DNA from: Branchiostoma floridae
Taxonomy: Eukaryota > Chordata > Leptocardii > Amphioxiformes > Branchiostomatidae
Reading direction: 5' to 3'
DNA length: 64,000 nt
Assembly: GCF_000003815.2 (NCBI RefSeq)
Contig: NC_049994.1
Span: 11,438,950-11,502,949 of the forward strand
The position numbers were made by a program, and so were the translations under genes. The notes beneath the pieces were generated by a model. The model was not told the origin of the DNA. It was given only the letters and a program-made list of their open reading frames with translations, and did not search any database. Positions within the stretch are counted from its first letter, which is position 1. The number at the start of each line of letters is the position of its first letter. Positions 8,401-63,060 of this stretch are shown here, in pieces.

Positions 8401-11400
8401 AAGCTAAGATGGTTCATTATTTTTAAATATATATCAAACAAGTCATAGCTAGAGAATCAGTGGTTCAACCAGTTTTTCTAAGCTTTACTTATATTGAATT
8501 GTTCTGCCAGTTCATTCTAGTGATGCTGAAGAAGAGTGATGGGGTCACTCGAAATGGCCGGAAGTAAATCTCAGTTTTGTATCCACTGTAACAGTTGTAG
8601 AGATTGAATTGTATCTGAATGAAATTCTATTAAATCTAAACATCACCAGAGTCTAATATCAACTTCTACATACAACACTGGTCACTTTCAATCTAAAAAG
8701 TCACTTTCTAAACGAAGACCTCATCCCAAATTTTTATTTATTTCAATGTTGCTTTGGTCATCGGTCAGCCGGATCTTTGGAGTAGTTTTGGAGCATTTTA
8801 AGAGTATTTTGATAAACCTCACTAGTATGTAACAAACTGATCACAAACCAGTAAGTTCAAATATATGTCAAGATTCAGTCAATCAAACTAAGCCCTTGCA
8901 CTTACCTGACAGCCCGTTTGGAGGCAGTTGAGATGGGAGTGGTGGGAGCACTCTTGGTGGAGCTTGGGGTGGAACTGGAGTTGGATATTGAATGTGACCT
9001 TGGATGGGGTGGAGGTAAACTCTGAAGAGACAAAGGAATAGTTATCAACACAGAATCATATGCCGCAAGGGCCCAAAATCACCTTGACCTTCGTCTATAA
9101 ACCTATCTACATACCTATAGTGTCATTACAATCCATTTAGAGGTTCTAAGGTTACATGTTCATTCTCATTTATTTATCGGTAATCACAACAGACCTCAGA
9201 ATGGTTAGGGTAAAATAGAATAGAACTGCATTTTTCCCATTTCTTAGTCAGGTAGTAATTCAAAACCTAATTTGTTTAAATTATCATAATGTCATAAGTT
9301 ACGTTTGTGAAGATTATACATCCAGGAATATAATGAATAGATGAAAGTTGAATCTCTTCTTCTGGATAAATGAAATTTAATTCAGACGTTTCAAACGACA
9401 TCCGTCGTTCTTCTTCAGTGAAATAAAAATAAAAGTTTACAACTCTGCGGAATAAGGANNNNNNNNNNNNNNNNNNNNNNNNNNNNNNNNNNNNNNNNNN
9501 NNNNNNNNNNNNNNNNNNNNNNNNNNNNNNNNNNNNNNNNNNNNNNNNNNNNNNNNNNTTTCATGTATAAGTTGTTCCTATCAAATTTCATGCCATAATG
9601 ACCATAGCAGGGGCATATTTTCTCTTATTCCTATCATAACCTAGTAATAAGTTATTGCTGTCAAATTTCATGCCATAATGACTATAGCAGGGTCGTATTT
9701 TCTCCTATCAGTAATTGTAATCTGAAAACTGTTTTTGAAAATTCAGCCCTCAGTTTTTTCCACAAAGACTCTGGAAAAGGATTGATCGTATCAATGTGAC
9801 CTTCATTATGAATGAAGGATTCCGTGTTAGCTTTGATGACGTCAGGGCCAGTCACGTGGCATACAGTCACCGCGTATCTCCATCCCACATGCTAAGATTC
9901 AATTTACATGCAAATGCCCTGCCTTTAGAACATAGTTAACCCTAATTTTCCAGCACAAGCCATGAGCTTAGTGCTGTGTGTACGGGGACAATCCAGTGTA
10001 GAACTTATTGAGTCAACATTTACATTGACTGAAGTGAAAGCTGGAGATTAACTACAACGAACAACAAGGGAGGGGGGCAGGGAGTGGTCTATTGATTGTT
10101 ATTGTTTTAACCTTGAATGCTACATTTTGTAGATATCCCCTCCCATATGCACACTACCATATTCATAGCATTGTGTTCAACTTTGATCTTCCTTTTCTAC
10201 AACAAAATACTTCAGGCCATTACAAAATGTACATATTGCACAATCTAGTTAACACCCCCTGGGGTGCAATAAAACTGGTGCCATGATACTTCTAAAAATC
10301 CCACAGGTGATCATCATTATTCAAAGGTTATTTCTAAACAACTGGGTACATATCCCAAGGCTGTTTTACAAATGCATTTTCTGACAGTGAGAAAAAATTT
10401 ACGACTCAAGTGCAAAAACGTTTCCATGTACACGTGCGCTGCTTAGAAACATTAGTGCAGGCAGTCGGAACAAAATTGGGTAGTCCATTATGGTAGACTC
10501 TTTATCCATCAGTATGGTCCTAAATTGAATTCTCTTGGAGAATACATAATGAATAAGAAAGAAGAATGTTTTAGGAAAAAATACCTACTTTTTTTAACTG
10601 GATGCTACTTCAGCACCAAGGACAGATCTTGTTTGTCTATCCAGTGTAACAGTCAATTATGTGCCCCTGACCAGAATTACCCAGTGTATTCTGGCCATGG
10701 GCCTTTTGAAGGAGAAGAGTGTTTGAAGACAAAAATAACTGCTTTCTAGATCCTGTTGCCACATCAGCACCGAGGACAGATCTTGTTTGTCTACCCAGTG
10801 TAACAGTCAACTGTGGGCCCCCGATGAGAATATCCTGATGTATTCTGGCCATGGGTGTGTTCTGGGTTTTTTTTTTTTGAAGAAGAATGTTTGAGGACAA
10901 AAATATCTGCTTTCTAGATCCTGTTGCCACATCAGCACCAAGGACAGATCTTGTTTGTCTATCCAGTGTAACAGTCAATTATGTGCCCCTGACCAGAATT
11001 ACCCAGTGTATTCTGGCCATGGGCCTTTTGAAGGAGAAGAGTGTTTGAAGACAAAAATAACTGCTTTCTAGGACTGGTTGCTACTTCAGAACCAAGGACA
11101 GATCTTGTTTGTCTACCCAGTGTAACAGGCCATAATGTGCCCCTGACCAGAATTACCCAGTGTATTCTGGCCTCTTAAAGAAAAATGTTTGAAGACAAAA
11201 ATATCTGCTTTCAATATAGACCCGTTTGCCACTTCAGCACCAAGGACAGATCTTGTTTGTCTACAGAGCGTAACAGGCCATAATGGGCCCTTGATAAGAA
11301 TATTTTGATGTATTCTGGCCATAGCTGTGTTCTAGCCTTTTGAAGAAGAATATTTGAAGAAAAAACATATCTGCTTTCTAGTTCTAGTTGCTACTTCAGC

Positions 11401-14400
11401 ACCAAGGACAGTCCTTGTTTGTCTCAATAATAGAATATCCCTGGGTGTATTCTGGCCAGGAATGTGTTCTTGCCTGTTATATATATATTTCAAAATGTAC
11501 AATTTGGCGATCTTTCTTTAGGTACAATAACCTTTCTTGACTGCTCGGTTATCATTTTGCCAATTTCTGTATCATGTAATGTGACATCATCCTTTCCTTT
11601 CACTATTTGCTATATTTTGGTTCTAATAATCTCAAGAAATCACTAGGAAATATTCCATTCCCCCACTGAATTGTCCCCATGGTATGGCATCTTAAGTTGG
11701 GGTCCATTATATTTTTCCGTTCACTTTTAGATGATCTTGATTAATGTAGTACGTGGGAGTACATGTAGGTACAAAAGCCTAGATGGATAACATCAGACTG
11801 CACTTAACAGGAAGACATTTGTATCCGCTGAAATGTCGAGAAAGTAAGGAATCCCCCAAGGCAGCGTAACATAAAACTTGTTATGACAGATATATCAGAT
11901 GCATGCATTTTCAAAGTCTTTCAGAATCAGATATACATGTTTGTTTGTTTTTTACCTTTATTTATTCATGTACAGAATACATCTCTTACAATATTGATGT
12001 GCAGTCTCTACAATCTTCAAAATATGTACATTAAAGATGTGACAGACTGCACATACATATTGTAGTATGAAGTTGCAACAGACTGCACATACATATTGTA
12101 GTATGAAGACATCCCCAGGGCCTTTTCTGAGAAAAGGATTGAGAGGAAAATACTGAAGGCATAAAAGGAAAATGCAAAAGTGAGAGGGAGTGCACAGAAG
12201 GGGGGGGGGGGGGAGATATATTTAAAATGCTCCTGTTGTTTAATGTAAGAAGAGAAATTTGGTGAGTAAATATTACTACAGTAACTGCAGTTGCCTTCAT
12301 TTCTTTACACTGATGATTCTAAATAATTGTGGATTCATGTTGTGAATATTACCAATAAAAGACTGTTACCCATACATGTAGGTACATCATTTTTGTACGA
12401 TACAAATAAAAGGGGTACTTTATGTATAATGTCTCCCGATACTAGTAATAGGCACATGTGTGGGATTAGATTACAAAGGCTTTTCCAAGAATTGACGATG
12501 GATAGAGAGGGTTATCTTCCCAACATCTGTGTCTCCAGCAATCATAAGGAAGATACGGTGAGGATAAGGATGTCACAATGGTTACCATGGCAACTGATAT
12601 GACGTCTTTGACACTAGGTCACTGACCGGCCATACGGTGATATAGCAGCATGAGACAATGTTTTTTCTGGGTCGACTATTCTAGTCAAACAAGGGACACA
12701 GACTCATCAGTGATGAAATAAATGTACTGAGCTATTACACCCTTCATAATAAATATTGACCTACAAACGTACTAGAATATGAAATAGAGGTTAGATGAAT
12801 GAAACAAGCTCATTAGGGATGTTTGATATCTTACAAGCAATTAGTAAATGCTTGTATGTACAATGAAACCATCCCTTCTAGTTTACTGTACCCTCTTACC
12901 ATCAGGGTCCATTTTACTCATTTAAAAGACAAAGACAGTCAAAGGCAGATTTAGTAGTGCTTTGGGGCCATTCTAAGTCCCCCAGACAAAAAGAACAGCG
13001 ATATATAGAATTCTGCTGCCTTGGTGTAAACTAGGAAATATAGAAACATAACAGAAAAGCTCAAACATTACTTCATTCCCTTGGGTGTGATAAAAATAAT
13101 TCTGCCTACCTGAGCCAACGTTTCTGTGTGATATTGAGCAACTGAGCGCAGTCGATTCACCCACTGCTGCCGCTCTTTAGCATCAAATGCTGCAAAACAA
13201 AGGAAAGTCAGTCAACAAAAATAAAGGGCACATTTTTTGTCAAAAATTGTTGCAAACATTTGACAGAAAATGGTAATTTTTCACCATTAATACAAAAATG
13301 ACTCCTCTCTATAGTGACCACATGCCTACAATTAGACAATGATTCTAATTGAGTATCAGCCCCCTACATGGTCTTATTGAGCATGTTTGACTATACAACG
13401 GTTACCGTTTAAATATATAAAGAACAAAACAAACACATAATACTTCTTCTTACCGATACAACACCCAGAGGTTGTGCTTAATACTGGGAGGACCAGACTG
13501 TTATGCCTGCACATTTGCACGTACGTATACCCACGCATCCCAGCGCAACTCAGGGCTGATTATTAGTCATGACACTTAACGTTATGATTCGTGGCTTGTG
13601 GGTTCTCCCTGCAACTTAGCTAAATATAGTGGCAACCCACTGAGGCAGATACAAAAGTGCTATCACTTATCATGATCATAATAATTACAACAGACTACAG
13701 GTACAATTTGAGTCTCGCGGAACCAATCTACCCTCATAAATGCTTAGGAAGGATTTTTATCGTCTGAATCTGATGTGAGAGTGTAATAAAAAAAATAAAT
13801 TTGGGTCATTTCTGTAATTTCATATAATGTGACCTTTTTAAAGTTTTATAACCATTAATTATAACTTACATAAATTAGCTATTTTTTGGTATGTTAAAAA
13901 TGGAAATGCTGTTGTTTAGGGCAAGAAATAATTATGATAATAGCAGTTACGATATATGAACTTAATATACATCATAACTGGCATGAATTGTAAATATGCA
14001 GGGCTGGCTATTCCATACAATATCTAACACCAATAAAGTTCATCCATGCTTTCAGCTATCTTTGCCACAAACAACTTGTCAGTCATCGTTAATAATATCT
14101 AGAATGACTTCACCCAAAAAGAATTCTAAAAAAATTTGTAATATTCCTTAGACATATCTGAGGCAAATTTATGATGCTAAAAACTTGTCCTGTAACTATA
14201 ACTAGAAGGAGAAATTTGAGCAAAGAGCCTGGCAAATACTCAATACCAGCAAAATACATTTCCTTAGAGCCTCCTTCAGTGGCAGGATTTATAAAGATTC
14301 CTCCCTCACGACTCCCTTCTGCTGCCCTCTATACGGTGTGAAACACTTCTGCCATGGTCGTATCATCCATCATCTCCCTGGTTACCATGGTAACTAATCG

Positions 14401-23410: not shown

Positions 23411-26400
23411 ATGTCTGCACCGAAGAAAATAGCGATTATCGGCTCTGGAAACTGGTAAGTTTTTAAGATGAACAAATTTTGGGTTTGCCCGGCGCGCCCC
23501 CAACTTTGGCCTACTTTAACTCGCAAATGATGTAACTTCTTTTAACGTTAAAACACTCTAACTGATCAGAAGGGAAATGAGAAAGCAAAACGTTTGTATT
23601 TATTTTGTATAGAATATACTAACTGGTCAGCAGCAACGTTTTATATTTGACCTACTTTTCCATGACCTTGCAATGACACGCACTCTTAGTATTAGTCTAT
23701 AGAGCTTTAAAAGACCTCCCAAACTTTTCTTTCTTCTCTGTTTGGACGACCCACATTTCTTGACAGTTTGCCGCTCAACATTTTAAATGTTGCGCGTCTT
23801 TCTGGGCTCGAATTCTCGTTGCTTTTAAACCTATAAGGAAGGGGGAGGGGCCGGCCCAAATGCAGTTTTCTAACCTGTGACCTACGCTCAGTTTTGGCAC
23901 GCTACCCCAAGTTGGGATCACCTCCCTGCATTCTACAGGACACTGTTATCCAATTAACGCAACGGGAATAATAGTGTTAAAAATATCTCGAGGTTACGAC
24001 GAACGAACAGATCTAAAAATGCCCAGCGTTACTTGAGTAGCAGACAACCCCAGTGTTTATTCAGCATCAGATTAGACAATTGTTGCAGTCCTTTGGGGAT
24101 AACTAGACTTGAAAGATGCCCAAGCGGAGAATTTGCATAGTAGGATGTGGGCAATGGTGAGATGTCATATTTTTTAGAGGCAGATTTCTTGATTGTTTTG
24201 TAGCTGTTACTTCAAATAACTATTTTCACCCCACAATCATGGCAGTGAAATACAATTTTGTTTGAGGTATGTTTGGCTGTTGTGTGCCCCAGTGTTAAGA
24301 AGTGTCAAATCAATTTGCATGTGCATGGGAAGCCAGACAAAATGTGTGGATAATATAGTTGAGAGCCAAACTCTTAAAGCGATCTAAACATCTTAAGGCC
24401 TAGGAAAAAAAATGTTGTGTTTCCTGTAACAGTCCTGAAAAAATTAGGGTCGGTAGGTAGGGATAATCTTTTTTTTTTTTTTTTTTTTTTTAGACATGGT
24501 ACATGTACCTGGCTTGAAAACTGGCAACACATTGGCCAAAAGCATTATTTCTTAAGCTGGGAACTGTGGTGGTGTCCATGTCAATATCTATCCATACACT
24601 TTGTTACATAGAAATGTACATTTATATTGTATGCTTCTGATGTCATCTTGCCGGCTCATAATCTTCATCTTCTGCTTTAGGGAAAGCTATCACTTATACA
24701 CAGAAGCAAACTAACTCTTATACAAGGATATAAATTGCCAACAAACATTGGGCATAGGTCCCCACTAGGACCCCTTACCGAGGGCCAACAGTCTGCCTTC
24801 AGGCTCAACAAGTGGAACAGTATACACAACTCCAAGTCATGTATTTCCTGCTTGGAACTTGAGGCAAGTTACCATGAAAAATGTAGAAAACATTGGGCAA
24901 AGCATCCTAACTTAACTTTTATCATCTTGATCATGTTAGTTAGAAAAAAAATCAACAACAAATTTTATCTAAGTTTGCCTATAGAAATAAGAATAAAAAC
25001 CTTGCTGGAATTATTGGCTCTCTGAGTTAATAAAAATCTATACAGACTAAATACATTTCATGGTCAACTGGTGCAGATGGAAAAAATTACAAATACTTGC
25101 ACTCCCCCAAAAAATACATGCACAACCAAAAGTACTATACCATAAACCATATATTAATTATCTTTTTTTTGTTACATGTACAATTGTTTGTTAGCAAAAA
25201 ATTAGATGCAATTTGATAAAACCTTGGAAAAACTCACATGCAACATTATTACCAGTACAAGTGCTGTCAAGCCTGCATTTCGCCCCAAATAAGATAGGGG
25301 CGCTGCTGTACATAAAACAAAATGGCGGCTCTCGGTTTGTTTACTTCATTTCGGACGGCTTTTGGGCGGACTTTTTTGCATTTCAGGCGTACCAAAATAG
25401 GTTAATTTTGGAGGTACAATAGTGAAAAAGCATTGTTTGTTTATTGAGTTGTTTGTTTGGGTGCTGATTTCTATGTTTCAGTTGAAAATTTACTGTGTGT
25501 TTGAGCACATGCTCCTGAGCTGAGTCATGCTTCTGAACTTCTACTACGTTTATACGTGTCCATGTGTATCTCATATTTACGATGATTTATGTGTTCCTAA
25601 TTATGTTAACTGTGATGTATGAAGTAAACAGAGGTAATGCAAGTATACAAAAGTAACGGGTTCCGCACTGGTGTTCCAGTGCTGAATCAATGGGTCGAGT
25701 CGGCCTCAGCACTGGTTTTCCAGTGCTGAAGAAACATCAGCACTGGTTTTCCAGTGCTGAACGGCCTTGTTCGAGTGCTGAAGCTCCCTCAGCACTGGAA
25801 TTCCAGTGCTGAACCCAATGCAAGCACTGGATTTCCAGTGCTGAACTTCTCCGAGCACTGGTTTTCCAGTGCTGAACTGTCGTCAGCACTCGGGTACCAG
25901 TGCTGAACTCGCGGCAGAGGTCATTCAGCACTGGTTACCCAGTGCTGAAACCGCCGTCAGCACTGGAACCGAGTGCTGATATACAAAAGTAACGGGTTCA
26001 GCACTGGATTTACCAGTGCTCGGGAACTTTTCAGCACTGGAAGACCAGTGCTGTAAAAACTTCAGCTCTGGGCTTCCAGTGCTGACGTTTATAAAGCACT
26101 GGAACGTTCCAGTGCTGAACGTAATATTCGTGTACTAGTAGCATGCGTCCGTACGGCTGTCTGAGTTATTTACTTTAGACTACACTTAGGTATATCTATG
26201 CGTGTTATTTAATCTCCAAGCAGATCTTGCGTGGCACTAGCTTTTACTAGCTTTAGACTAGAGTAGACACTTGTGATATTGTTAATTGTGTATACAGTTA
26301 ATGGCACTCAAGTTTCTTTTCTTTTGGTCAATTGATACGAAAATTTTAAATCAACAAATCACATATTCTATACTTGTGGCAAAGTAGTGTCTTTTTAGTC

Positions 26401-29400
26401 AGAGGTAGTTAAACTAACAGTTGGTCTATGTGTGTGGTAAAGAGATCACTTGTTTTTTTTTTACAAAGAATAGGTAGTTACAGGTGGACGACACATTCTG
26501 CTTGTGCGGCAAAGTAGCATCATTTAAAAAACATTGTATAATACAGTTGTCCATTTATATTTTGTTACAGAATGTAAGTTCTTTTCACCAACTTTATACA
26601 TTTTATACTCGGTTTCCAGTGCAGAATATTTGTCAGCACTGGATTTCCAGAGCTGAAATGTCCTCAGCACTGGAAATCCAGTGCTGATTGTAGTCTCAGC
26701 ACTCGGTTTCCAGTGCTGACAGGAGGGCTTCGAGTGCTGAAGCTGCCTCAGCACTGGATTTCCAGTGCTGACGCCGGCTCAGCACTGGACTTCCAGTGCT
26801 GACGACCACTTCAGCACTGGTGTTCCAGTGCTGACAGAGGAGACCGTTACTTTTGTATATTTGCAGAGGTAATTGATGTTATTTTGACTTTTTCTACTGC
26901 ACTAGGAATTAGCAGAACATGTTCAAAAACCGATTTTATATCGATGCATTACTCGAAAGCTCCTTGCACAAATTCTCACATGGAAAATTCATGTCTGCCA
27001 GCCGGCCACCCAAAAAAAAGTCAAGGGTCGGCAGGTTTTTCTAGGGTCGGTCGGGTTACAGGAAACACAACATTTTTTTTCCTAGGCCTAAACTAGATAA
27101 TTGTGTCTTCATGAAGTTCATACATTGAATCCAATCTTGAGCTGGTCTAAATTTGAGACATTTTTTCTGCAGAAACTTGTTCTGAGTAAGGACACTTTGT
27201 GCCTTGGTATAGTCTTGCTGGGCCATTGTTGTATGTTCTTTGTATTTGATGACATATTTACATGACAACAATGTGTGATGAGAATTAAGATAGTTGCTTG
27301 GTGCTAAATGCCTTGTTAGGTAGGGTTTTACTTGATCTTTTAATCGTTATTCCTTTATTCATATTGTGAATTGTAGTCTGTCAATGGCTTGGTGTTTGGT
27401 TTCAAGGTAGCTCAATATCATATTTTCTGTTAAATATAAGTTCATATTAACAGTCCAAGGAGCTTTTGATAAAAGCTCCTTGATCAGTCTTAACAAAATT
27501 GTTCAGGTTTTCATATTCACAAAGATGAAGGATATAATCATATATTTAGACGGTCCTCACATTTGGTAACAATGCACCATTTATCTAGTAATGACATTGA
27601 GAACAGACATGAATTTTTCCCTCACTGAAATGATCATTTAACCTTGTTACAATGTCACTGTGTAATTATAAAGCCTAGTTGTCCCTGACACTAGTATACC
27701 AACCTGTTGCTTTTACCATTGTTGATATCAGTATGGTCATACATATGTAGTCTAGTAATTGCCCTTCTGTATGCCAGCTGTGGCACCCTTTATGTGCTTT
27801 GAATGCTAATCAACTCAGTTCTGCCCACCAGCATTCTCAGGTCATATAATATGGGGGCATGTAGCTTTCTCTCTTGAGACTTGAGACTTTACTTGAAAAT
27901 CCATTAGTGGCATGCCCATGGACTTTCAAATAAGCATGTCATGAAATCTACACATTGAAAACAATATGCTAATTGTATTGTGCATTTTGTAATTGTGCAT
28001 GTTGAATTCTCACTAATGACTCTCTCACTAAATATAGCACAATACGTGTTATAGTTAACCAGGCAATGGTTCGCACCCATTAGTAACACTAAGAGGCAAA
28101 AGGCCAAACTAATTAGAAGGTATGGACAAGGCAGTAACATATATCCCCCTTGGTATGGATGACACAAGTATTTTCAAACTTATTTGATTTCTGCTTTAAC
28201 AATACTGCATCCTGTAAAGTTTGTGAAAAGCAAAGTTTCATGCATGCTAAATAGAAACAAATTGCTACAAATGGTCCTAGAAAGACTTTTTTTCAACTGA
28301 GTGCAAGATGAGAGGATATGCACATGTTGCAAAAGTACTAAAACTGTCAAATCACCCTACATTTTGTCCTTCAATTGTTGAAAAAAATGGCTTAGAAATT
28401 GCTGTTGATAAGTTGTTGATGGAGATTTCCTGTCCCTTTCCCAGGGGTTCCGCCATCGGGAAGATTATCGGCAAGAATGCGGCCAACCTGGACCAGTTTG
28501 AGACGCAGGTGAACATGTGGGTGTTTGAGGAGATGGTCGACGGCAGGAAACTGACAGAAATCATCAACACAGACCACGAGAACGTCAAGTACCTGCCTGG
28601 ACACAAACTTCCCGAGAATATCGTACGTATGACTTTTCATCTCTCACTGTCTTACCGTTCTGTCTTTCTTTTATTTCTATGACCCTTTATTCCCTCTCTC
28701 TTTATCATTTTCCCCTCTCTCCCAGTCTCTGTATCATTTTACAATAAATATATCATTTGATATGTTGCCTTTTCTGTAGCTAATTAGTAAACTTGTAAGT
28801 TGTAGCAGCCTCACAGTTGAGCTCCTAGTTCCAATTAGTTGGAGAAAATTAACAGATTTTACCAACAGATTATCACACGTTTTGGGGCTTACAGGTCCTC
28901 GAAAATAACAAGAGATAACTAAAGGGGAGTTGGTAGTCATTTCTACTATGTTTCCACAATTAAACTTGGTCTTAGTTAACAGAGGCATTAGTGTTGTTTA
29001 CATTAAGATAGGATTTTAAACGCCAGTAGAAGTCGGATACTCCACCAAACAGATTCCTTTGTAGTGAAATGGACTATTGTTTTGACTATTGTCCATTCAC
29101 AAGTTTTCAAGTACAATTAGGTCCAGTTTCAGGTTCGGCCTGGTCCTCTGGACTTGGACTATACCTGGACCCAAATTTTCTGTACAACTACAGGTACCCA
29201 TCTCTAATCTCCATGTATCTCCCCAGGTTGCTATCCCTGACGTGGTGGAGGCGTGCATGTCCGCAGACATCCATGTGTGGGTGCTGCCTCACCAGTTTGT
29301 CAGGGGAGTGTGTCAAAAACTCAAGGGGAACATCAAACCTGATGCCGTCGCACTGTCTCTCATCAAGGTAATAAAGTTCAATGATACTGTAAATCATAGA

Positions 29401-36127: not shown

Positions 36128-38347
36128 TCACATGTATCTGTACTTCCTGACACAGTGATCAGCATAGTCCACTACAAACACATGTCCATCCTCTGTCACA
36201 GCCACCCCGTGGGGCTTGTTCAGTCTGTCCCCATCACTACTAATGGTGGACACCCAAGTCCCGTCTAAGCGAAATACCTGAAGCTTTTTACCATGTTCTA
36301 CGCCACATGAGTCAGACTTATCCCCCACGTTGGCCAAAACTATGTTCCCCCTGTTGTCAGCTGACACCCCTGTAGGGCCCCACACGTTATGTGACTGTCT
36401 ACCATGCACTCCAAACTTATTTAGAAAATTCAGACAGACATCAAAGATTTGAACACAGTTCTGAAGTGTATCTGACACAACGATGTTACTCTCATTATCC
36501 ACACAGACAAAAGATATGGAGTTGAATTTCTGGGCCTTCAACAGCTCCTGGTGACCTCCCACCTGTTTCACCAGTGTCCCATCTGCTTCGGCGAACAGAA
36601 AAATGTTCTGGTCAAAATCAACTACAACAACTCCCCCGTCCGTCTGTACAGCAAGACTAATGATGCTAGTGCAATGTCCCTCCAGATCTAATTTTTTCAG
36701 CAGATCTCCTGACGGTGAAAATTTCATCACTTCACCTCCACACAGCACCACTACGGTGCCATCAGTCTGAATTACGACTGATTCTGGGTTCGAAGTTGTC
36801 AAAAATGAGGAACAAAACGTCCCATTCAGATCGAACACCTGGACACGCTTGTTGAACGTGTCAGCCACATACAGCCTATCCCCCCAGACTGCTACATCCA
36901 AAGGTCTGTCAAACTGCCCCTGTTGGCTGCCCTTTTCCCCAAACGTCAGTACAGGGTTGTTGCTGCCCACTTCTACAATTAGCGGAGACCACACACCCTT
37001 TCCTGATGTCCTACCCCACCCCCGTTTCCCCCCTTCCCTTGTAGACTCACCCCCTCCCCCCGTAGCCACCCCCACCACATGCCTCCCCGATGTCTGTGGT
37101 CTCCAGACAGCTTCGAATACCCCCTCGCTGATTTTGATGGTTTCCAGGGTGACACACTGTCCCCCAGGGGAGGTGACTTTGACTTGAGGTGTTCCCTGAA
37201 CTTGACCTTTCTGTGGCCGGAAGACTACCGTGGTCGGCAGACTTTCTACCGGTGAATCTGTGATGACAAGGGGCTTACAACTGAGTTCTAACTCACACTT
37301 CATATCAGTGTTATGCTGGTTGAACGTTATGTATTTCTTTAGTGCTTCACGCTTTACCTGCTTTGCAGTTAGGACTTTAAGCCTGTCTTCAAGTTGCTGC
37401 CCAAGGGCTATAACCTCTACATCATTGTTTCTAGCAAGGACATCTGTACAGAACTGAAGTCCATCTTCAGTACATCTTAGATTTTCTTCAAAAGTTTCCT
37501 TTTCTTTTACCAGCGGCTCTTTCTGTGTCTTCTCCATTTCCTCAAGTTTGTCCACTACGTCCATCTCTGCCTTCTCCACTTTTGACTTCAGTTGTGCAAA
37601 ATGTTCCTGGATTTTCGTCTTCTCCACTTGACAGTTTGTTGCGATGCTTGACAGTTCTTTCCCAATGGTGTAACTCGCGTTCCTCAAGGCGTCGGCGGTG
37701 TCCAAAGTTTTCTGCACCAACGTCTGTAGCTCGTCCTTATACTTCTGTGCGACATCTCCTATCTCCCGCGGGTTATGTTTGCGCCCCTGCCGGTGTTCGG
37801 TGATTGTGCACTCTCGGCACACGAGCTTTGCGCAGGGCTGGCAGTAGAACGTCATGCGCACACCTGTGTGTTTGGCACAGTACTCCGCGCCGTTTTACTT
37901 TGACCTGCTGTTGGGGTCCTCCAGATCATGCAGGGTGATGATGTAATGGTCTTTCAGGGCGGGAGAGTTACCATGTGCAGCGAAACAGTTTTCACATAAG
38001 AGAAGTTTACAGTCTACACATATGCTCTCTACCCTGGCTTCCGACTCACACATCTGGCAGCTGGTTTCTTCTCTAGTACTGTTGTTCAGTGCCCAGAAGT
38101 TCAGCAGTATCTTGATGTAGACATTAGAAGGAAGACTGTTAACCGAAAATTCACTCTTTAGCGTCACCTGGTGTTGACAGGTAGGGCAGGTGAACTGGCT
38201 ATCTCCTGTCCGTCGCCGATCAAGACACTTGGCGCAGAAGGTGTGAAGACACGGCAAGAGTCGTGGGTCGTCGTAGATGCCCTTGCAGACAAAACACTTG
38301 AGGGACTCACCGGCAAACTCTTCTTGTATACCTTCTGCAGAAGCCAT
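36128..38347 (-). CDS. TRIM-NHL protein (TRIM2/3/56-like), interrupted by in-frame TAA
   Basis: Probable RING E3 ubiquitin ligase. From MASAEGI the frame runs 739 codons without an intron. RING C3HC4 has Cys18, 21, 33, His35, Cys38, 41, 54, 57. A B-box 1 follows (CQMC...CVDC...CENC). After the break come B-box 2 (YCAKH...FYCQPC...CREC...EH), a coiled coil (about residues 205-340), a filamin-type Ig domain (about 375-450), a Gly-rich insert, and about six NHL repeats to the end (VVDYADHCVRKYRYM). Codon 151 (37895-37897) is TAA, and the frame continues unchanged on both sides. There are no other breaks. This is either a base error, a segregating nonsense allele, or a young pseudogene. An intron across it would be only about 35 bases, too short to be likely. 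TRIM-NHL genes lacking introns are common in lancelets. Confidence 0.85.
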
Positions 38348-39392
38348 GAGTGTTCTTACACTACGTTCACTGAAACTGAGAGCCAACAAACCACACAGAT
38401 TCTACACAAACACAAAGTACAGCCTAAACGGAAAGGACCAGTACTAAATTGATGTCTGTGTTCGATCTGCGATAAGAGTCTGTCAATGATTGGTTCAAAG
38501 AAAAAGTATGCAAACATTTTATTTGACTAATGATACACAGTGCGTAGGGCCTTTGACTCTATACATTGACAAGGCCAAAGACCATTTGTGAAAGGTAATT
38601 ATAAAGGTAGCGCCATCGCCTTTTTTTCGAGGCAGCAAGGGCAGAGGGCACTTTGTCTGGGGATCAATATTGGAAAGTGGAGAACATCCCTGTCCTGCCC
38701 CCCCGAAAAAAAAAAACGTTACGAAGTTAGGTATTCTTTTTACACCTAGGTTACATGAAAAAGGCCGAGGACATAATGTCTAACTGTAAAACCATTTAGC
38801 GAAGAATGCGGGCCGTTGACCAGTTTTTAATTTACTAGTTATTCCTTTACTGTTAAGCTCATGTTTTTAAATTCATAGTATGAATACGTATATCACTGCA
38901 TATCTCAAACCCCAATACATGATAAACATCATTTTGAATATTTATTTAGTTACAAAGATAATAAAGAAAACGTCGAGGCCTTATTTTGTGGTGTTTTTTT
39001 TTTGTCTGAACATGTATGTCCTTGCTTGTGTTGTTGGATAAGATGCCATAACGGTAACATCAACTCTTTTTCGACCATTTGTGCTTGACTGTTCTCGGAA
39101 AGTCCAAAATGATTTTGCATAAAAATCTCACAACGAGGTAACACCGGTGGGTAAGGGTAAATAATTGTTCCATCACAATTATCAAACGAAGGCCACAAAG
39201 GTGAAGAGTAAAGATTGTTCCATATACAAGAGTTTTCGTGATTGTCTCGTAGTGTTCTAGAACGGCATTTACACAGTGTTGTAGCGTCGCTATGGAACAG
39301 TATCCAAACACAACTACACAGCTGAGGATGCCATTAGTGCAAGTCTCAAGCGTCTCGTTGTGTACAGATAGATTTTGATCCCGTTTGACACC
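38348..39392. promoter_or_regulatory. Divergent intergenic region, TRIM gene / gene at 39393
   Basis: About 1 kb between two start codons pointing away from each other, so it should contain both promoters and 5' UTRs. No TATA box is obvious at a fixed distance from either start, and no coding potential is evident. The right-hand start has a strong context (caccATGG). Confidence 0.45.
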
Positions 39393-62264: not shown

Positions 62265-63060
62265 TGCGGGCTTGTCGGAAGATATAGGCACCACAGTTTC
62301 ACGGTTTGTTTGTAACAAGGACAACAAAACAACAACAATGAGATGGTTGTTTATTATGCGATTTTGATGTGTTAACGGTGCTGTGGCATATTGTGAACTT
62401 GTTGTGACGGACTTGTCGGAAAGACATGTAGGGACGACAGCCGCACAACAGATGATTAGTCGGTTTTAAGGAAGGACAACAAAAGAACAACAACAATGGC
62501 CATGGGATGGTGGTTTTATATGCGATTTTGATGTGTTAACGATGCTGTGGAATATGTGAACTTGCTGTGACGGACTTGTCGGAAAGACATGTAGGGACGA
62601 CAGCCGCACAACAGATGATTAGTCTGTTTTAAACAAGGACAATAAAACAACAACAATGGGATGGTGGTAACGATGCTGTGGAACGTTGTGAACTTGTTGT
62701 GACGGACTTGTCGGAAAGACCAGTAGGGACGACAGCCGCACAGCAGATGATTAGTCTGTTTTAAACAAGGACAACAAAACAACAACAATGGGATGGTGGT
62801 AACGATGCTGTGGAACGTTGTGAACTTGTTGTGACGGACTTGTCGGAAAGACATGTAGGGACGACAGCCGCACAACAGATGATTAGTCTGTTTTAAACAA
62901 AGACAACAAAACAACAACAATGGGATGGTGGTTTTATATGCGATCTTGATGTGTTAACGATGCTGTTTAATGTTGTGAGCTTTGTGGACTTGTGGACTTG
63001 TCGGAAAGACATTCCATAGTAGCGACGACAGCCGCACAACAATGATGGTCAGTCAGTGTT
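62265..63060. repeat. Tandem repeat, 132- and about 160-bp units
   Basis: The anchor gacggacttgtcggaaagac occurs at 62406, 62569, 62701, 62833 and, altered, near 62990, with a degenerate start near 62265. Two spacings are exactly 132. The 163 and about 158 spacings differ by an insert of about 30 bases (ttttatatgcgattttgatg) after ggatggtgg. Since 132 is a multiple of three, a minus-strand frame stays open across units and gives a repeated peptide. I regard that as a by-product. Confidence 0.9.

Follow-up and report, generated by a model that had tools for sequence, protein, structure and literature searches.

A Foldback-type DNA transposon family of Branchiostoma floridae with helically phased palindromes in its ends

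Introduction

The long repetitive ends of Foldback-type transposable elements have long been without a clear role. Here we describe a DNA transposon whose ends carry arrays of short palindromes, together with the family to which it belongs. The element lies at positions 25639–26864 of a 64-kb stretch of Branchiostoma floridae DNA (assembly GCF_000003815.2, contig NC_049994.1, positions 11,438,950 to 11,502,949 of the forward strand), referred to below as the window. We favor, at a probability of roughly 60%, the reading that it is a non-autonomous transposon of Foldback/Mutator type whose phased arrays of dimer sites recruit a transposase or an accessory protein.

Drosophila Foldback (FB) elements have 31-bp repeats. 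In the CACTA elements En/Spm, the TNPA sites are short protein-binding motifs found in both orientations near both ends; these elements differ from the family in the window by their 3-bp duplications and CACTA ends. The comparisons that follow draw on excerpted texts of the cited papers. Muta1, a Mutator-like element (MULE) of Aedes aegypti, is the nearest working analogue. It makes 8–9-bp duplications, has nine 12-bp subterminal repeats in its end and has given rise to more than 300 non-autonomous derivatives, in which the repeats and the cores vary; it is called a type 2 Foldback element, and its footprints suggest cleavage outside the end (PMC5225508). Like Muta1 and related MULE families, the window family has long ends with many short subterminal repeats, short spacers, a variable number of repeats and varied cores. 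Unlike Muta1, its repeats are 24-bp palindromes set at 31 bp or other whole helical turns, there is an internal copy of the terminus, and no transposase was found here.

Other described systems share parts of this architecture. Tm1, a Mutator/Foldback family of root-knot nematodes, makes 9-bp duplications (8–10 bp in 45/53) and has composite ends with a variable number of a ~14-bp motif, asymmetric terminal motifs and members resembling miniature inverted-repeat transposable elements, all of which have counterparts here (PMC3169594). It differs in having a known Phantom-type transposase, and its motif is not described as palindromic in the excerpted text of that paper. Galileo of Drosophila also has long ends with internal repeats, which the THAP domain of its transposase binds; unlike the window family it belongs to the P-element superfamily, with three named sites per end and another terminal sequence (PMC3688188). 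The same source calls binding untested for the repeats of Foldback and Phantom. Tetris and Drosophila Foldback resemble our family in their foldback ends with tandem repeats and their 8–10-bp duplications, and Tetris likewise has no found transposase; it differs in its TIR-220 tandem repeats, and palindromes go unmentioned in the main text, as excerpted (PMC4079207).

No description of the present family was found in the open-access literature, searched by titles and the beginnings of abstracts, a search to which Repbase did not belong. A preliminary description of the window, made from its letters alone, had gone further in knowing of no described element of such form. That was too strong, since Mutator/Foldback elements with subterminal motifs and 8–9-bp duplications are on record (PMC5225508, PMC3169594). 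The structural class is already known; this family differs from its described members in that its sites are palindromic, AT-centred and helically phased and that it carries its terminus a second time internally.

A well-bounded element with two blocks of palindromes

The element is enclosed by a perfect 9-bp target-site duplication, AGAGGTAAT, at 25630–25638 and 26865–26873. Its ends are 21-bp inverted repeats that differ at one base: the left one (GCAAGTATACAAAAGTAACGG, 25639–25659, plus strand) is of the G type, beginning with GCAAG, and the right one (GCAAATATACAAAAGTAACGG, 26844–26864, minus strand) is of the A type, beginning with GCAAA. A left block of 13 palindromes and one lone half-site (25662–26118) is separated by a core (26119–26606, plus strand) from a right block of six palindromes and two lone half-sites (26607–26834). 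Within the left block, the sequence at 25980–25995 on the plus strand (TATACAAAAGTAACGG) repeats the left end internally, and GT and then a palindrome come next, just as they do at the terminus. This internal copy occupies the same place in the copies of the other three subfamilies (B, C and D, below) that were examined. The core has no open frame of at least 120 amino acids. Its 138-bp unit (26396–26533, plus strand) occurs as tandem copies in many relatives, and the cores of other copies consist of different sequences, tandem units or nested retrotransposons.

Palindromes were accepted when their arms lay within two mismatches of TCAGCACTGG and CCAGTGCTGA. Per-position identity to TCAGCACTGG is 88–100% over the 41 arms of the element, and at up to one mismatch the rest of the window holds a single near-arm per orientation. 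A search for hairpins with a 10-bp stem, at most one mismatch and a loop of 3–6 bases gave 34 matches in the element, compared with a mean of 0.14 in shuffles. Same-length stretches elsewhere in the window averaged 11.75 matches, a mean inflated by three stretches with 68, 154 and 314 matches, all of which contain runs of N; the other 45 of the 48 had 0–6. The palindrome loops are 83% A/T, compared with 47% in the spacers, and are therefore not free to vary.

These observations bear out the boundaries given in the preliminary description, namely the 9-bp duplication and the 21-bp inverted ends, as well as its claim of conserved arms, which are kept between subfamilies too. The approximately 20 palindromes it saw in two blocks come to 19 plus the three lone half-sites. 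Its freely varying loops are instead AT-rich, and the paired arm changes it reported were not recovered: 15 changed positions in the window copy are uncompensated and 0 are compensated. The internal copy of the left end, the helical spacing and the repeat unit of the core are additions to that description.

A genome-wide family with 9-bp target duplications

The 513-Mb assembly from which the window comes (431 contigs) was searched with the ends and the palindrome, as the preliminary description had proposed, and a large family emerged. The window-type end occurs at 270 places with up to two mismatches, compared with 2 for the reversed control; the exact G-type end has 72 places and the exact A-type end 68, each with 0 in the control; and the exact palindrome has 769 places, again with 0 for its reversed control. 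Together with the ends of subfamilies C and D (below), these end counts suggest a family of about two hundred copies.

Target duplications were scored at loci L027–L131 (105 loci, many overlapping and some not elements), keeping elements with exactly one end per orientation at up to three mismatches and dropping the others, which left 48 distinct elements. Their 9-bp flanks show 0 mismatches in 37, 1 in 6, 2 in 1, 4 in 1 and 7 in 3. A duplication with at most one mismatch was thus present in 43/48 elements, compared with 0/982 random pairings. In 47/48 elements a G end is paired with an A end. The shortest element measures 77 bp and the longest 9863 bp. The common inverted ends and the duplication of fixed length identify a cut-and-paste DNA transposon with terminal inverted repeats, and the window element is one member of the family. 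Palindromes number 1 to 25 per element among those counted, and cores measure from ~20 to over 1400 bp; composite ends, internal repeats of variable number and a variable core together place the family in the Foldback-type structural class.

We also asked whether the palindromes could be a satellite that occurs without the ends, using the palindrome places listed on chromosome C1, up to 31.3 Mb. Seven of them have no adjoining exact end of subfamily A or B. One of these is L041, which has a left end with one mismatch; among the six others, five still show an A/B or C/D end that identifies them as elements or their remnants, and the sixth, L128, is a decayed series of arms that lacks ends. Apart from L128, the listed part of C1 therefore holds no end-less satellite of the kind that the preliminary description named as a refutation.

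Several members deserve individual mention. Two on contig C323 are very short: L121 (77 bp) has one palindrome and a duplication with two mismatches, and L122 (141 bp) has three palindromes and a duplication with one mismatch. L124 (C229:87947 and 88152) has a pair of identically oriented left ends, 205 bp apart and with similar flanks (TATTGACAA and AATTGACAA), and no right end within the stretch. At L057 (C1:34.28 Mb) and L062 (C2:28.37 Mb), the 9-bp duplication is intact and offset by exactly 4 extra bases at the GCAAG end; at L127 it is offset by 4–5 extra bases at that end. Such offsets would agree with cuts made a few bases beyond the end, as has been suggested for Muta1.

Sources outside the genome were considered and set aside. 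The palindrome has no match in IMG/VR contigs and a single place in each of 5 contigs of a prokaryote genome collection, and a 16-base piece of the end matches 21 viral contigs, once each; we took both sets of matches as chance and rejected a bacterial or viral origin. Amphioxus 'mirage' minisatellites, described in excerpt as tandem duplications of an exon–intron boundary (PMC3087553), are different by that description, the present element being bounded by transposon ends and duplications.

Four subfamilies

The copies fall into four subfamilies, A to D, and the window copy belongs to A. Subfamily A has a core with the 138-bp unit, in tandem in many copies; subfamily B has different cores, for the most part longer, and a higher number of palindromes. 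Subfamilies C and D were traced from C1 palindromes without an exact A/B end nearby. C has the end GCAAGTCTACGAAAGCTTCACC (members L127, L130, L132 and an element on contig C5), D has the end GCAAGTCTACGAAAACCTCGCC (member L129), and the end common to C and D occurs at 186 genome places, compared with 12 for the control. Perfect 9-bp duplications flank L129 (CTGGGATAA), L132 (CCAAAAATC) and the 11.8-kb C element on C5 (TATTCTCTC). In 15 A copies of our own selection, the left blocks differ pairwise by 0.4–6.6% (median 2.2%), and these low values suggest that the subfamily spread fairly recently.

In the internal copy of the terminus the outer part, TATACAAAA, is constant. The inner half varies by subfamily: A and B have GTAACGG, C has GCTTCGCC and D has ACCTCGCC. 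The inner end motif differs between subfamilies (AGTAACGG, AGCTTC[AG]CC or AACCTCGCC), and it switches jointly at the left terminus, at the internal copy and, in slightly different form, at the right terminus.

Conservation of arms between subfamilies

Single copies of different subfamilies were compared, with loops or spacers of unequal length excluded. Between A and C (the window copy and L127, ten homologous left-block palindromes), differences number 12/200 in arms, 19/78 in spacers and 12/32 in loops, or 6%, 24% and 38%. Between A and D (the window copy and L129) they number 8/200, 14/58 and 10/40. Arms differ from the rest with Fisher P values of 1.8e-7 and 2.8e-7, respectively. Within the 15 A copies the rates are similar (off-majority bases 37/3900 in arms, 7/810 in loops and 30/2204 in spacers; P 0.29), so inserted copies simply decay, and conservation between subfamilies means that lineages which continued to transpose preserved their arms. 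On these alignments, the pattern fits selection during mobility followed by decay after insertion.

Spacing and helical phase of the palindromes

Most palindrome centres sit whole helical turns apart. In the window copy, the centre spacings are 44, 31, 52, 32, 31, 31, 42, 31.5, 42, 32.5, 31 and 32 bp in the left block and 31, 32, 52, 31 and 32 bp in the right block, and across the family they are mainly 31–32.5, 42, 51.5–52 and 63–63.5 bp. The mean cosine at a 10.5-bp period is 0.92 for the 17 window spacings. For eight spacings that we chose as independent (31, 44, 52, 42, 31.5, 42, 32.5 and 63, the last from subfamily B), it is 0.888, with P 4.5e-5 against uniform spacing, or P 6.5e-4 when the period is left free between 9 and 12 bp. 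With chosen spacing lists for each subfamily, the values of A and D were reached in 0/100,000 draws and that of C in 0.014%. One spacer differs between A and B by exactly 21 bp, or two turns (42 to 63).

Probable protein recognition and its alternatives

The palindromes are probably dimeric protein-binding sites and not hairpins, as judged from their sequences. Each end would present an array of 24-bp operator-like sites, in each of which a pair of inverted 10-bp half-sites flanks an AT-rich centre, mostly 4 bp long, and the whole-turn spacing of most sites would set a dimeric DNA-binding protein on one face of the helix. That protein would most likely be the transposase, supplied in trans, or its accessory protein. 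Bound dimers could then form a multimer responsible for selecting and synapsing the ends. The element would be cut at its GCAAR ends or close to them, and its insertion would duplicate 9 bp. Unequal exchange or slippage may add or remove 31-bp units, with helical phase kept. We infer three separate things here: that a protein binds, that the binder is the transposase, and that this transposase belongs to the Mutator superfamily. The family makes the idea of such ends as multimeric loading platforms directly testable, as its roughly two hundred copies in four subfamilies, with 1 to 25 sites where counted and spacing mostly in phase, amount to natural experiments. The 769 exact sites are also many strong candidate dimer-binding sites scattered through a chordate genome.

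A doubtful extension, which we offer tentatively, is that recognition has two parts. The fixed, phased array of dimer sites would lay down a nucleoprotein scaffold and be recognised by a protein that stays the same across subfamilies, either a host factor or a transposase domain that they share. A specificity domain that changes would recognise the inner end motif, the part that switches from one subfamily to the next. If true, new subfamilies could escape or change partners with the scaffold unchanged.

Several findings weigh against recruitment of a transposase or its accessory protein by the arrays. No transposase gene with family ends was found, and no Pfam transposase was present in the frames scanned (9/21 at L077, 1/12 at L078, 9/27 at L119, 3/18 at L132 and 7/14 at L133). 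No match to either of the MULE/Mutator transposase profiles, PF10551 and PF20700, lies closer than 10 kb to any of the 156 end places used in the comparison (66/72 exact G ends, 19/68 exact A ends and, for C/D, 71 of the 100 ends listed among 186 counted), and three matches lie on contigs without a compared end. Some spacings are out of phase: 43–44 bp once in most copies examined, 66 bp in L093, 50 bp in L098, and 50 and 72 bp in L127. Copying of 31-bp units yields in-phase spacing without selection, and the phasing test thus rests on the few independent spacings of our choosing. Arms were found by similarity, which slightly biases the comparison toward conserved arms, and 1/36 changed pairs among the 15 A copies is two-sided and pairing. 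Protein binding is itself a prediction, and the binder could be a host protein.

This last idea, that a host silencer, insulator or transcription factor binds the palindromes and that the element gains chromatin targeting or control of its own expression, is the strongest of the alternatives, and still an unlikely one. Operator-like geometry, AT-rich centres and phasing fit it equally, and subfamilies differ in the inner part of the end but not in the palindrome, as if the two were read by two different proteins. Against it, the sites stand at both ends of a mobile element, at least one palindrome is present in every element counted, and the known precedent is that of repeated subterminal transposase sites.

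It is more improbable again that the arrays have no function and are a minisatellite, grown by 31-bp duplication in a transposon end and with arms homogenised by gene conversion. Units are copied. The B copies examined contain between one and five repeats of the unit ACTTTTC with its palindrome and as many as seven of the unit AACGTCC with its palindrome; the repeats are identical or nearly so, and 31-bp duplications are visible. Palindrome number therefore does vary among aligned copies, a check proposed in advance, by duplication of 31-bp units, and the repetition looks like slippage or unequal exchange by 31-bp steps with phase kept. Unit turnover is also described in amphioxus minisatellites (PMC3087553, in excerpt). 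Homologous spacers, however, keep their identity between subfamilies and the arms are constant, such that conversion tracts would need to end at the arms, and the listed part of C1 has no end-less satellite array, the decayed fragment L128 excepted.

The arms are kept without compensation of their pairing, which means that the sequence and not the stem matters, and this points to a protein. In one copy of each of the four subfamilies, 0 arm changes are compensated and 82 are uncompensated; stems are perfect in 26/82 palindromes of these copies and in 4/20 of the C copy, where the left arm is mostly TCAGCACTCG opposite CCAGTGCTGA, a mismatch that has been retained. A role as DNA cruciforms or RNA hairpins is thus highly improbable: 10-bp stems with 3–7-base loops could form in single strands, and the 15 A copies do show one two-sided pairing change, but they show 35 one-sided changes beside it, helical phasing serves no role in an RNA hairpin, and the 64-kb window has no Rfam match and no transfer RNA. 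Of the preliminary reading, selection on the palindromes of a mobile element stands, given the ends, the duplications, the variable number and the conserved arms, and of the causes it proposed, protein binding agrees with the data; hairpin RNA and replication driven by cruciforms are hard to square with the uncompensated mismatches.

Search for a transposase

For an array-bound transposase, the Mutator superfamily is the candidate source, as its target duplications are ~8–10 bp (PMC5225508, in excerpt) and those here are 9 bp. Membership is unproved because no element with these ends was found to encode a transposase. The genome contains 27 matches to PF10551 and 40 to PF20700, 13/40 of the latter with open frames of at least 500 amino acids; the nearest lie ~20 kb and 10.6 kb from a compared end. 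The two best PF10551 loci (L117 and L118, 8.9 kb each) were considered as an autonomous partner and rejected, having no family end or palindrome and one 1-mismatch arm each.

The cores of L078, L119 and L132 contain reverse transcriptase frames, probably from inserted retrotransposons that lack long terminal repeats. The 11.8-kb subfamily C element on C5 (C5:19152173-19163942, L133–L135), of which 3 kb of interior and both ends were read, has in its middle a fragment of a Myb/SANT-like DNA-binding domain (PF13837, E 9.5e-9). The element may be a large member of the family or one that was once autonomous, and the domain fragment is a lead only.

Other features of the window

Approximately 1.4 kb downstream of the element, a frame at 28281–28679 on the plus strand matches the N-terminus of nicotinamide adenine dinucleotide-dependent glycerol-3-phosphate dehydrogenase. 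Two frames at 36128–38398 on the minus strand, with RING, B-box, weak filamin and NHL matches, mark a TRIM-type gene. Tandem repeats occupy 10559–11424 (units of ~154/322 bp) and 62338–62932 (units of ~132/163 bp).

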